Below are positions 7,698 to 18,038 of a DNA stretch of 33,500 nt, in pieces. Below the pieces are notes generated by a model, which saw nothing but the letters and a program-made list of their open reading frames with translations, had not been told where the DNA came from and ran no database searches. The translations under genes were made by a program, and so were the position numbers. The DNA comes from Gammaproteobacteria bacterium (GTDB lineage: Bacteria; Pseudomonadota; Gammaproteobacteria; SZUA-229), in contig WFOC01000073.1 of NCBI GenBank assembly GCA_015488295.1, positions 1-33,500 of the forward strand, given 5' to 3'. Position 1 is the stretch's first letter. Each line of letters begins with the position of its first letter.

Positions 7698-8584
7698 TGG
7701 CCAAAATTTTCCTCACAGCTTTTCTTTCACCAGCACTCAGCATTTTTTTGCTCACCGTCATGGCGACCGATGTTTTTGCCACACAGGCTGTACCGAAAAA
7801 AAACATCACTCTGAAAAACACTTCCTGCATACAGTGCCATGAAGCACAAAACCGTTCACTGATAAAAGACTGGCAGAACAGCGCACATGCAACAGCCGAA
7901 CCTGTGGTCGACTGCGTCAGCTGTCACGGCAGCTTACACAGCAACATGGCCAGCACTGCACGGCACGATGATTCCTGCACCGGCTGTCACGGCGGTGAAA
8001 AAGCACCCGTTGCGCACAGCTACGCAAGTTCAAAACACGGCAGCCTGATGCGCATCGAAAAAAATACTTATGACTGGAACCAGCCGTTTATTTTGGCAAA
8101 CTACCGCACACCCGGCTGTGGTTACTGCCACATGTACCAGAGCAACCATAATGTCAGCAGCACCGTCAGGCATGAGCTGATGAATGGCAAAACCGATAAT
8201 TCAGAAATAGAAAAAGTACAGGATAAAATGCGGCAAGCTTGCCAGACGTGCCATGCACCGCGTTACATAAGCCTGCTATTTAGTAACGGCGAAGCCATGC
8301 TGGAAATTGCCCGCAAAAAAGTACGCGAAGCAAAAGCGGTTATAGATCAGGCGGAAAATCACTTTAATGAAAACCAGCTGGCACCGGCGAAACAACAGTT
8401 CAAGAAAATGCAGCAGCACCTGAGAAATGTTCACCTCGGCATTGGCCACCAGTCACCGGACTATCAGTGGTGGCACGGCCAGCCAGCACTGGACGGTGAC
8501 CTGCTGCGCATCAAGGACAGCATCGGCGAGTTGCAGCGTTTGAAAGCTATCAATGAATCCCGTTCCGATGCTGTCAGCGATTAA
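7697..8584 (+). CDS. Pentaheme c-type cytochrome related to the upstream octaheme cytochrome
   Basis: 295 aa with signal peptide and five CXXCH motifs (CIQCH, CVSCH, CTGCH, CGYCH, CQTCH). SKHGSLMRIEKNTYDWNQPFILANYRTPGCGYCHMYQSNHNV aligns with [42 protein letters not shown] in the upstream protein. C-terminal HLGIGHQSPDYQWWHGQPALDGDLLRIKD is HAO-like. Confidence 0.85.
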   Translation: MAKIFLTAFLSPALSIFLLTVMATDVFATQAVPKKNITLKNTSCIQCHEAQNRSLIKDWQNSAHATAEPVVDCVSCHGSLHSNMASTARHDDSCTGCHGGEKAPVAHSYASSKHGSLMRIEKNTYDWNQPFILANYRTPGCGYCHMYQSNHNVSSTVRHELMNGKTDNSEIEKVQDKMRQACQTCHAPRYISLLFSNGEAMLEIARKKVREAKAVIDQAENHFNENQLAPAKQQFKKMQQHLRNVHLGIGHQSPDYQWWHGQPALDGDLLRIKDSIGELQRLKAINESRSDAVSD

Positions 8585-9195
8585 TTATTTTTCAGATAAT
8601 TTTTCGCTTCAACATGCGCCGGCAGTCTGACTAAAACTTTCCGGTATGCAGCTTTCGCCGCAGAAACATCACCCTGCCACGCTCTGGCACGCGCCAGATA
8701 AACCAGCACGGTGCCGTCCGTTGGATAAGCTTTTGCCACCTGCGCAGCATGTTCAGCAAGCGCATCCCACTTTCGCAGACCTTCTTCCGCCACCATCAGG
8801 CGAACGTGTGCCGTGTAATTCCAGCGTGACAAACGCAGCACCTGTAGCGAATATGACTTAACCTGTCGCCAGCGTTTTTGCGCGATCAACGGCAGGGTAA
8901 TACCCAGTTTTGCATCGATTGAATCAGGATTTTTTTCGATGGCCTTTCTGTAGTAACTGATCGAATCACCATTCTCGCCCATGAGATACATCAGGTAAGC
9001 ATAACGCAACAAGGCATATTCATTGCCGGAATCGGCGACAGGTTCAATAACCTCTGCGGCCTGTTCATATTTTCCAGCCGCTGCCAGCTGGTAGGATTGT
9101 TCCCACACCGAGCTACCGGCATGACTTGCCGTGGCAACAAAAAGCAAAATTAAAACAAGAATATTTTTCTTATTAAACATCATTATTGGTCTCAA
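8581..9195 (-). CDS. Secreted/periplasmic TPR-repeat protein
   Basis: 204 aa. Signal peptide (NILVLILLFVATASHA) and TPR-like repeats (ALLRYAYLMYLMGENGDSISYYRKAIEKNPDSIDAKLG; VLVYLARARAWQGDVSAAKAAYRKVLVRLPAHVEAKNYL). Confidence 0.85.
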   Translation of the reverse strand: MRPIMMFNKKNILVLILLFVATASHAGSSVWEQSYQLAAAGKYEQAAEVIEPVADSGNEYALLRYAYLMYLMGENGDSISYYRKAIEKNPDSIDAKLGITLPLIAQKRWRQVKSYSLQVLRLSRWNYTAHVRLMVAEEGLRKWDALAEHAAQVAKAYPTDGTVLVYLARARAWQGDVSAAKAAYRKVLVRLPAHVEAKNYLKNN

Positions 9196-9222
9196 GATTT
9201 TCTCCCGCTTTCTAATTAGTGG

Positions 9223-15309: not shown

Positions 15310-15945
15310 TTATTTTTCCAGCGCCTGAAGCACTGAACGTGCATCAACATTTTCCGGATCAAGAATCAGCACGTCCTGCATAACTGCCGCTGCCCGCACA
15401 TAATCCTGCTGTTTGTATTTCAGCAGACCAAACTCACCGAGGAACAATACATCACTGGGGTAACGCACCAGCATTTTGATAAGAACTTTTTCTGCCAGCT
15501 CAAGCTGGTCAGTCTGGCGCAACACATAGGCCAGTCGCAGATTACCGTAATAATTATAATAATCAACACTCAGAACCTGATAACCAATCTTGCTGGCATC
15601 ATCGTATTTTCCGGCCTGAAGGTAAACATACATCAAGCCCAGCTTCGGAGTCAGCGCATCGGGCAAAGCAGCAGAAGCCTGCTTGTAATGTGTTTCTGCA
15701 TTTTTAAACTGTGCATTCAAACGGTAAAGATAACCCAGACGATTATTCACCCCATAAGTCTTGCTGTATTCCTTATACACCAGTTGCAGGGCTTTTATCG
15801 CATCTTCATAATTCCCGGACTTTTCATAATTATAGGATTTGTAATAAGCCTGGGAGATCTGCTCACCGGTTAATTCTTTAGCAGACAATGCTCCGGCATT
15901 AAAAACCAGTGCCAGAAAAAATAATATGTTGTAGTACTTGTTCAA
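15310..15945 (-). CDS. Secreted/periplasmic TPR-repeat protein
   Basis: 211 aa. Signal peptide (NILFFLALVFNAGALSA) and TPR-like repeats. Collinear similarity with the 8581-9195 protein. Confidence 0.85.
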   Translation of the reverse strand: MNKYYNILFFLALVFNAGALSAKELTGEQISQAYYKSYNYEKSGNYEDAIKALQLVYKEYSKTYGVNNRLGYLYRLNAQFKNAETHYKQASAALPDALTPKLGLMYVYLQAGKYDDASKIGYQVLSVDYYNYYGNLRLAYVLRQTDQLELAEKVLIKMLVRYPSDVLFLGEFGLLKYKQQDYVRAAAVMQDVLILDPENVDARSVLQALEK

Positions 15946-15959
15946 TGTAAAAACCAGCC

Positions 15960-18038
15960 TTAATGTTTTGTTTGTACCAGACGATAATCGTCGACCACAA
16001 TCTCTTTAAAACGAGCGACAGGATCAAGCTGGATACGAGTTTCGATGTCAATTCCGAAGAACTGATTATTAATTTTTCCTTTTACGGTTGTTTCATCCAG
16101 ATAGTGATAAACAGCCTGCGTACTAACCCAGTCGGTATGAAAGGAATTCAACAGGCTGGACGTGTTTGCCTGCCAGTTTTTCATTACCAGCAAATTGTTT
16201 ATATTATCCCGCCATGTCAATTGCGGCACGTAAGACAGAGGCAACATCGAAAGTGCAAGAAACATTTTTTTCAGATAAGGGTCATTACCCTCGCAACTAT
16301 AGAAATAAAAATTTCCGTACTGCTTGCCAAAGTACAACTTTCCTTTGTCACTTTCGAAGTAATAACAAGACAGGTCTGACATTCTCACAGTCAATGCCAG
16401 CGTATCTATCTTGTTCTCTTTGAGGTACACATCAAATAAAAGTTCTTCATCAAGAACAAAATTTGTCACCTGGTCATAATACAGATCAAACTGACAGTGT
16501 GTCACATCACTGTGCACCTTCGGCAGACCTGACACATGCAACTGCCTGTCCTGTTCATAATTTACAAAAACGAAAGGCAGCGTTGCCGCCGACGGTGAGT
16601 AATCAACCTGCATTTGTATGTGGATATGCGGCTGTGGCGAGTTGCCGGAATTACCGCATAAACCCAGCACTGCACCAACATCAACCCACTGTCCTTCAAC
16701 AACATAAATAGAGTGACTGGCAAAGTGCGCCAGCTTTACAATGTAGCCGCGTGAATCTTCGATAACAACTTCATTACCCCAGTTATTAACGATATCTACC
16801 GAACCTACGGGATTATCGGCCAGGTAGTGAATTACTTTAACCACACGACCACGCACCGGCGACAACACTTCTTCACCAAAACAATAATAATCACTCAGCT
16901 GTGTGCCTTTATTCAAATACGTTTTGTTATCAGAATCACAGATAACAAAATCATAAGCATATTTATAAAGGCCTTTATGTGTCCAATTGCCATCAAAACC
17001 CTGCCAGCTATACCAGCGTCCTTTAAAAGGCAATGACAATGCCGCCGGTTCTTTTACAAAACGGTCTCTTGTCGACAGGTAATGTTCCAGGTTCTGCTCC
17101 GGCGTACCTTTATACACCTGTGTCCGCAACGGATAATTAAGCAGGTTAAGAGCATAGATAAAACTCAGAGTAACAATAGTGAACGGCAGTGTGAAAATCG
17201 GCAGGCCGTACTGCGACCAGAAAACATGTCCGGCGCTGGCAATAAGTGTGGCAAATGACACACCCAGAAAGGCTAGGGCATAACTTCGTAAGGAAGGGAT
17301 ATTAAAAATACCACCGATAGCCATGGCAATAAGAATGTAGTTGAAACCACTAACATCCAGCGCTGCCGTTTCTATAGAACCGGTAAACAGACCATACAAC
17401 GAAATACCCAGAAGATAACCACTTAATGACAGCACAAAAAGAATACGCGAACTGAGCAGCAATAACAGTGAAATCAACAGACCGGTAATCTCGTTAGGCA
17501 TAAAAATAATTGCCCCCAGTGACTGCAGATAGCCACTGAACCAGAAGGGAAAAATATCAAGATTCAAAGCAAAGGACTGCGAGTACAGCCCGGCCACATA
17601 AAGATTGGTAAAACTCGCAGACGACAGATACACCAGAATACTAACGATAATGAACGGCACACTAAGAATCTGCAAACCAAACAATTGATAAAAAACCTGC
17701 GCGGTAACAATGGTAATGATCATGGTCAGGCTACCGGCGATGATAATCATCAACACACTCAACACCGAAATTTCAAACATATAACCAATCGCCAGCCCGA
17801 CCAGCAAAGCGTTATAGGTAAAATACCCGGTGCTTAGAAATGTTGTCTGATAACCCAGCAGCCGCGCCACAGAATAAGCGGCGATAATAGAAAGAATACC
17901 CGACACACCCGCGTTGTAGTTGATCAGGGTAATAACAAGAATAATTAAACCGGAGACAATACCTTTAATAAAAAAGATGTCTGAATAACTGTTAAACAGA
18001 GAGTGGAAAAGATTTTTTACATCTTCATGGTATGACAT
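15960..18038 (-). CDS. Fusion of a urea-transporter-like membrane domain (N-term) with an M23/LytM-like peptidase domain (C-term)
   Basis: 692 aa. About ten hydrophobic segments with UT-like features (YFTYNALLVGLAIGYMFE; LPIFTLPFTIVTLSFIYAL). C-terminal M23-like AHFASHSIYVVEGQWVDVGAVLGLCGNSGNSPQPHIHIQMQ. Confidence 0.82.
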   Translation of the reverse strand: MSYHEDVKNLFHSLFNSYSDIFFIKGIVSGLIILVITLINYNAGVSGILSIIAAYSVARLLGYQTTFLSTGYFTYNALLVGLAIGYMFEISVLSVLMIIIAGSLTMIITIVTAQVFYQLFGLQILSVPFIIVSILVYLSSASFTNLYVAGLYSQSFALNLDIFPFWFSGYLQSLGAIIFMPNEITGLLISLLLLLSSRILFVLSLSGYLLGISLYGLFTGSIETAALDVSGFNYILIAMAIGGIFNIPSLRSYALAFLGVSFATLIASAGHVFWSQYGLPIFTLPFTIVTLSFIYALNLLNYPLRTQVYKGTPEQNLEHYLSTRDRFVKEPAALSLPFKGRWYSWQGFDGNWTHKGLYKYAYDFVICDSDNKTYLNKGTQLSDYYCFGEEVLSPVRGRVVKVIHYLADNPVGSVDIVNNWGNEVVIEDSRGYIVKLAHFASHSIYVVEGQWVDVGAVLGLCGNSGNSPQPHIHIQMQVDYSPSAATLPFVFVNYEQDRQLHVSGLPKVHSDVTHCQFDLYYDQVTNFVLDEELLFDVYLKENKIDTLALTVRMSDLSCYYFESDKGKLYFGKQYGNFYFYSCEGNDPYLKKMFLALSMLPLSYVPQLTWRDNINNLLVMKNWQANTSSLLNSFHTDWVSTQAVYHYLDETTVKGKINNQFFGIDIETRIQLDPVARFKEIVVDDYRLVQTKH

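Follow-up and report, generated by a model that had tools for sequence, protein, structure and literature searches.

In the Puu pathway of Escherichia coli a diamine is capped by an ATP-using ligase and is later freed by an amide hydrolase, and the 14-strand outer-membrane porins OmpG and CymA are solute channels. FslC, the N-citrylornithine decarboxylase of the rhizoferrin pathway (PDB entry 7kh2), combines an amide and a decarboxylation on one molecule; the urea-transporter (UT) fold is represented by dvUT (PDB entry 3k3f) and the Yut family (TIGR03441), and Mycobacterium tuberculosis Rv2531c (PDB entries 9n0n and 9n0o) is a probable amino acid decarboxylase. A cluster of seven genes was compared with these systems. 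It occupies positions 8581–18038 on the − strand of contig WFOC01000073.1 (assembly GCA_015488295.1) from a gammaproteobacterium of the SZUA-229 lineage; the window analysed is the whole stretch from position 1 to 33 500 of this contig (33 500 nucleotides, nt). The seven genes almost certainly form a conserved functional unit, which we tentatively read as an operon for the biosynthesis and export of a small amide-capped (N-acyl) diamine-type amine. This reading shares its general logic with Puu, but the ligase and hydrolase belong to other families, Puu has no envelope module, and the window cluster holds neither the oxidase nor the aldehyde dehydrogenase of a Puu-type gene set.

In the order of transcription the open reading frames (ORFs) encode a UT-M23 fusion protein (692 amino acids; 15960–18038), TPR protein 1 (211 amino acids; 15310–15945), a pyridoxal phosphate (PLP) decarboxylase of the OKR fold (879 amino acids; 12665–15304), an ATP-grasp enzyme of the PRK06524 type (496 amino acids; 11178–12668), a C45 (AAT-like) N-terminal nucleophile (Ntn) hydrolase/acyltransferase (324 amino acids; 10204–11178), an outer-membrane β-barrel (303 amino acids; 9223–10134) and TPR protein 2 (204 amino acids; 8581–9195), with intergenic gaps of 14, 5, −4, −1, 69 and 27 nt. 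These coordinates, the strand and all six gaps reproduce a preliminary description of this DNA exactly, and its family calls (UT, M23, two TPR proteins, OKR_DC, C45 and ATP-grasp, the last weak in Pfam) were all upheld by model matches. In 50 shuffles of the segment the longest stop-to-stop frame was 219 amino acids, against real ORFs of up to 879 amino acids; frames this long lie well outside what chance would give.

Relatives were sought by whole-genome searches because an exact-peptide scan of GTDB contigs had given one close relative only. All seven families are present in two further genomes (G273 and G256), in which the operon is split across contigs, and two genomes of another class (G453 and G427) hold all except TPR protein 1; the genes therefore recur together in other genomes, and the main outcome that the preliminary description had named as refuting its reading did not occur. 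The decarboxylase, ATP-grasp and C45 genes form an enzyme core that is adjacent in near relatives at 64–91% identity and is also found together, at approximately 34–49% identity, in distant members of the Gammaproteobacteria, in other groups of Proteobacteria and on one Bacteroidota plasmid. Core enzymes from UT-M23-type clusters form one clade in each of three trees (support 100/100, 99/99 and 100/100). That the genes are merely loose neighbours, unrelated and without a common function, is highly improbable: patchy presence (two of the 18 genomes of the genus, the window's own counted) speaks for it, but gene order is kept across families and in the second class despite differing flanking genes, the core enzymes share a clade, and an analogous replacement occurs beside the same envelope genes. 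The patchy distribution within the genus and a G+C content of 0.445, compared with 0.504 for the remainder of the window, suggest that the cluster is an acquired unit.

The strongest new evidence comes from the envelope module, which consists of the UT-M23 fusion, a TPR protein and the 14-strand OmpG-like barrel. UT-M23 was found in 33 of the 398 genomes sampled for the phylum and in about 16 of the 339 sampled for the class (full fusions, counted by eye). Of the UT-M23 loci examined, a further 31 differ in type from the window, and in all of them the fusion adjoins a PLP decarboxylase of the LysA fold, non-homologous to the OKR fold. A second kind of ATP-grasp enzyme, with PylC-like and carbamoyl-phosphate-synthase-like matches, is present in 29 of them, the remaining two being cut by contig ends; a PqqD-domain protein (25/31), a barrel (21/31) and a TPR homologue (22/31; in loci L158 and L160 a homologue of TPR protein 1 lies directly 3′ of UT-M23) complete these operons. 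A separate class-level search covering 312 genomes found 11 copies of the second ATP-grasp gene, each of them one or two genes away from UT-M23; the probability of this overlap arising by chance is ∼2e-15 if genomes are taken as independent, which related genomes are not. Because OKR-linked UT-M23 proteins branch at two separate points of the UT-M23 tree and both operon types are found within one family (f217; L074/L075 and L155), the enzyme sets are, judging from gene content and phylogeny, exchanged beside the same envelope genes. By this evidence the envelope module would need a decarboxylase and an ATP-grasp enzyme of whichever fold, and the operation of the same membrane parts by a different, unrelated enzyme pair elsewhere suggests, but does not prove, one shared job. 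The preliminary description had proposed that the decarboxylase and the ATP-grasp enzyme act by an amide-ligase logic, and this proposal is strengthened because an unrelated pair of the same kind takes their place next to the envelope genes in other loci; the amide remains a putative product.

The closest solved protein to the LysA-type decarboxylase is N-citrylornithine decarboxylase (E = 9e-52), ahead of the diaminopimelate decarboxylases. With this relationship and the PylC- and carbamoyl-phosphate-synthase-like character of the accompanying ATP-grasp enzyme, both enzyme sets could yield an N-acylated diamine, conjugation preceding decarboxylation in one set and following it in the other. 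The fold of FslC is, however, unrelated to that of the window decarboxylase, and no siderophore synthetase was seen in the loci examined. The LysA-type decarboxylases (loci L106–L114, L116, L119, L144–L153 and L155–L161) carry a conserved N-terminal tag of ∼40 residues before the catalytic domain, with the motif W-x-K-P-(T/S)-(L/I)-x-x-H-x-x-G-x-x-N-K-F-G and variants of it; the tag resembles leader motifs bound by PqqD-type domains, and the PqqD-domain gene usually lies one or two genes upstream. In L107–L109 genes for an OmpR-like response regulator and a histidine kinase lie 5′ of the LysA-type operon.

The window decarboxylase matches the major domain of PF01276 (OKR_DC) with 248 bits and carries the lysine for PLP within an SxHK motif; Lys557 (of this motif), Asp481 and His393 are invariant in the aligned relatives. 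Its closest solved structure is that of Rv2531c, a full-length relative (640 bits over residues 27–877). The ATP-grasp enzyme gave a weak Pfam match (16 bits); its true family is PRK06524 (483 bits, below the model cut-off of 684). E315, N317 and R319 are invariant, and the motif at E315 reads E-I-N-P-R-V-T-G (family form E(I/L)NPR(I/V)TG). A structure predicted from an alignment without rows from plasmid records (predicted local distance difference test, pLDDT, 89), Foldseek matches at E ∼1e-16 and the Mg-binding Glu/Asn pair (E315 and N317) assign the protein to the ATP-grasp fold. A single-sequence search of the PDB returned no relatives and a profile search weak matches of the biotin-carboxylase type. 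Database records label the family 'biotin carboxylase', a label that is unproven. The window enzyme lies below the cut-offs of the biotin carboxylase models (PRK06524, as above, and accC, 12 of 627 bits), and RIQVEH, the bicarbonate motif of E. coli biotin carboxylase, is not present in it. From the E-I/L-N-P-R-I/V-T-G motif and the genetic context, ligation is the favoured activity.

The C45 protein matched the AAT/C45 models with 112 and 147 bits, above their cut-offs (NF040521, 147 bits against a cut-off of 85). Cys92 is invariant, and its role as the nucleophile and self-cleavage are predicted from sequence. No relatives were returned by a single-sequence PDB search with this protein, and a profile search gave weak matches to choloylglycine hydrolases.

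UT-M23 comprises a urea-transporter-like membrane domain (residues ∼13–296; UT, 197 bits), an M23 metallopeptidase-like domain (388–480 by Pfam; Peptidase_M23, 42 bits) and a third, conserved domain (∼510–692; window 15960–16508) that matches no family over its length. The zinc-binding and catalytic set by which M23 proteins were judged, namely the first His and Asp, the middle His and HxH, is intact, with H354, D363, H438, H471 and H473 conserved. The UT fold of dvUT and Yut extends across the whole UT domain, but in UT-M23 the M23 and further domains are fused to it and the score against TIGR03441 is 102 bits, below the cut-off of 274.6. The counterparts of Q24 and E187 of dvUT, which we take to be the polar filter residues of this solved bacterial urea transporter, fall at positions 20 and 176 and are kept in none of 18 relatives; the two phenylalanines are mostly retained. 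Urea handling, in which UT-M23 would be a urea channel and the release or uptake of urea would be linked to arginine or agmatine breakdown, is thus very improbable. In its favour are the UT match of 197 bits and three distant loci (L022, L025 and L062) in which the core lies close to ureohydrolase-family genes, but the filter residues are replaced and a search of the window's genome (88% complete) detected neither a urease nor a ureohydrolase; on these two grounds urea is an unlikely cargo. The movement of urea-like molecules that the preliminary description had entertained finds no support for the same reasons.

The loops of the UT domain were assigned by hand on the basis of hydropathy and the established fold of urea transporters. 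In the 18 proteins alternate loops carry 225 Lys/Arg residues on the predicted inner side against 29 on the other; for loops alone the counts are 81 and 29, with the inner side having fewer residues. By this positive-inside pattern the UT domain is predicted to have its two ends, and hence the M23 domain, in the cytoplasm; the coupling to the wall suggested previously, if made through a periplasmic M23 domain, is not supported. The placement also bears on envelope modification, in which an amine or amide would be attached to the wall, a lipid or a protein and assembly or repair would be the task of UT-M23, the TPR proteins and the barrel. The classical role of M23 domains is that of a wall endopeptidase, the parallel system contains enzymes resembling diaminopimelate decarboxylases and the window operon has two periplasmic TPR proteins; but with both UT-M23 ends predicted inside the M23 domain would not face the wall, no transferase or lipid-carrier gene is present and the barrel has a porin-like fold. 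We regard such a role as unlikely.

The barrel belongs to no family in Pfam or NCBIfam. Its AlphaFold2 model is a confident single-chain barrel of 14 strands (pLDDT 88.7), with OmpG and CymA as the nearest Foldseek matches (E ∼1e-8 to 1e-7); it resembles these porins in predicted strand number and fold, although identity is only ∼10–16%. The barrel is known here from UT-M23 operons only, the sole places where it was sought. Both TPR proteins match Pfam TPR models and have apparent signal peptides by inspection. In G256 (L020:2042–5634) the barrel and TPR protein 2 genes are duplicated in tandem behind the C45 gene.

Outside UT-M23 clusters the core keeps different company. A nitrilase-family amidase is encoded in 17 of 22 such loci, and several hold genes for γ-aminobutyrate (GABA) transaminase, aldehyde dehydrogenases (including succinate-semialdehyde dehydrogenase), permeases and peptide ATP-binding cassette importers; in L022 and L062 the decarboxylase gene is absent and arginine racemase-like, D-amino-acid dehydrogenase, AruI and ureohydrolase-family genes stand in its place. 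Going by these neighbours, a catabolic relative of the core is linked to the metabolism of arginine, polyamines and GABA. In three Rhizobium/Sinorhizobium plasmids (L061, L064 and L066) the core adjoins glutamate dehydrogenase genes; L061 also has electron-transfer flavoprotein (fixAB) genes and nifA nearby and a shortened C45 gene beside transposase genes. In L066 the ATP-grasp gene is present as a tandem pair. The Rhizobium literature on arginine use and on SMa0680/SMa0682 was considered, no tie to this family was found and it was not used.

These settings raise the possibility of uptake and breakdown. A compound of peptide or amide type would enter through the barrel and UT-M23 and be cleaved by the C45 enzyme and the cytoplasmic M23 domain, and the amine would be passed to metabolism by the decarboxylase and the ATP-grasp enzyme, as in the catabolism of γ-glutamylated polyamines. 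The amidase, GABA, permease and importer genes beside the core and the arginine-related genes of the two loci without a decarboxylase agree with this, and the fusion of a channel to a cytoplasmic hydrolase fits import well. The envelope-type clusters, however, hold none of these catabolic partners and their enzymes form a separate clade; the window's genome has no detected ureohydrolase and no close nitrilase (best match 33%), and the parallel LysA-type set with its ATP-grasp and PqqD-domain proteins looks biosynthetic. Uptake and breakdown is accordingly a serious but rather unlikely alternative.

In the biosynthesis and export that we tentatively prefer, the PLP decarboxylase would convert a basic amino acid of the ornithine, lysine or arginine class to an amine, which the ATP-grasp enzyme would couple to a carboxylate at the expense of ATP, and the C45 Ntn hydrolase may trim, proofread or transfer the acyl part. 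The product would cross the inner membrane via the UT-like channel, where the cytoplasm-facing M23-like domain could process or gate the cargo, and the periplasmic TPR proteins and the barrel would provide passage through the outer membrane. The analysis shows the anatomy of the operon, its co-conservation, the catalytic residues, the barrel fold as predicted and the exchange of the enzyme set; the substrate, reaction order, topology (from charge bias only) and transport direction are those that we infer. Several points weigh against this reading. Channels and porins are passive and leave the direction unfixed, and an energy source for export is absent; the occurrence of the core without envelope genes in catabolic settings with importers points towards degradation. 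The ATP-grasp fold matches are biotin carboxylase, PurK and PurD, at a TM-score of only ∼0.6 and 12% identity, which leaves room for carboxylation chemistry. The nearest solved decarboxylase, Rv2531c, has no established activity (PMC12910592).

The first gene is preceded by a 115 nt intergenic stretch (18039–18153, − strand) that is presumed to be the promoter region, with no consensus site scored. A promoter-like site, TTGGCA-17-TATAAT (10303–10331, − strand; consensus match only, 11/12), lies within the C45 gene, 5′ of the barrel gene, and may be an extra start for the barrel and TPR protein 2; promoter-like sites overall number 24 against 19 expected, which is near chance. The earlier view of one operon stands as regards a conserved single unit, with this strong internal site as a caveat. 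The cluster is flanked by a divergent AmpD-like amidase gene upstream and, with a 4 nt overlap, a convergent cytochrome-like gene downstream. The region 3692–8584 encodes an 810-amino-acid fusion of ferredoxin/NapH-like and glutamate-synthase-like oxidoreductase parts followed by two CxxCH-rich proteins, presumed multihaem cytochromes, and two very large adjacent genes at 25889–33366 (1733 amino acids with OmpA domains and 759 amino acids with SdrD_B/DUF11 domains) are likely to encode surface proteins. None of the seven proteins matched the PADLOC models of anti-phage defence. There were no UT-M23 relatives in viral contigs and plasmids gave M23-domain matches only, which gives no indication that the cluster came from a mobile virus.

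No published description of this gene set was found in the open-access literature, a search of which returned nothing specific for the combination, in line with the preliminary view that it is not a named pathway. With somewhat greater reserve, it may represent a new class of envelope system, in which a UT-fold channel fused to a cytoplasmic M23-type hydrolase, a periplasmic TPR protein and a 14-strand outer-membrane pore are dedicated to a decarboxylated amino-acid amide, and two exchangeable, unrelated pairs of PLP decarboxylase and ATP-grasp enzyme have evolved or been recruited to supply them; in one branch the PqqD domain may dock on the leader-like tag of the decarboxylase. The names in database records (biotin carboxylase, C45 peptidase and urea transporter) are possibly misleading. 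Several orphan families gain a genetic context and a hypothesis for their function from this analysis, namely the UT-M23 fusion, the 'biotin carboxylase' of PRK06524, the Rv2531c-type decarboxylases and the OmpG-like barrel, which has no name. The natural experiment offered by the swapping of two unrelated enzyme pairs beside one envelope module restricts the chemistry to products within reach of both and so makes a search for the product feasible.

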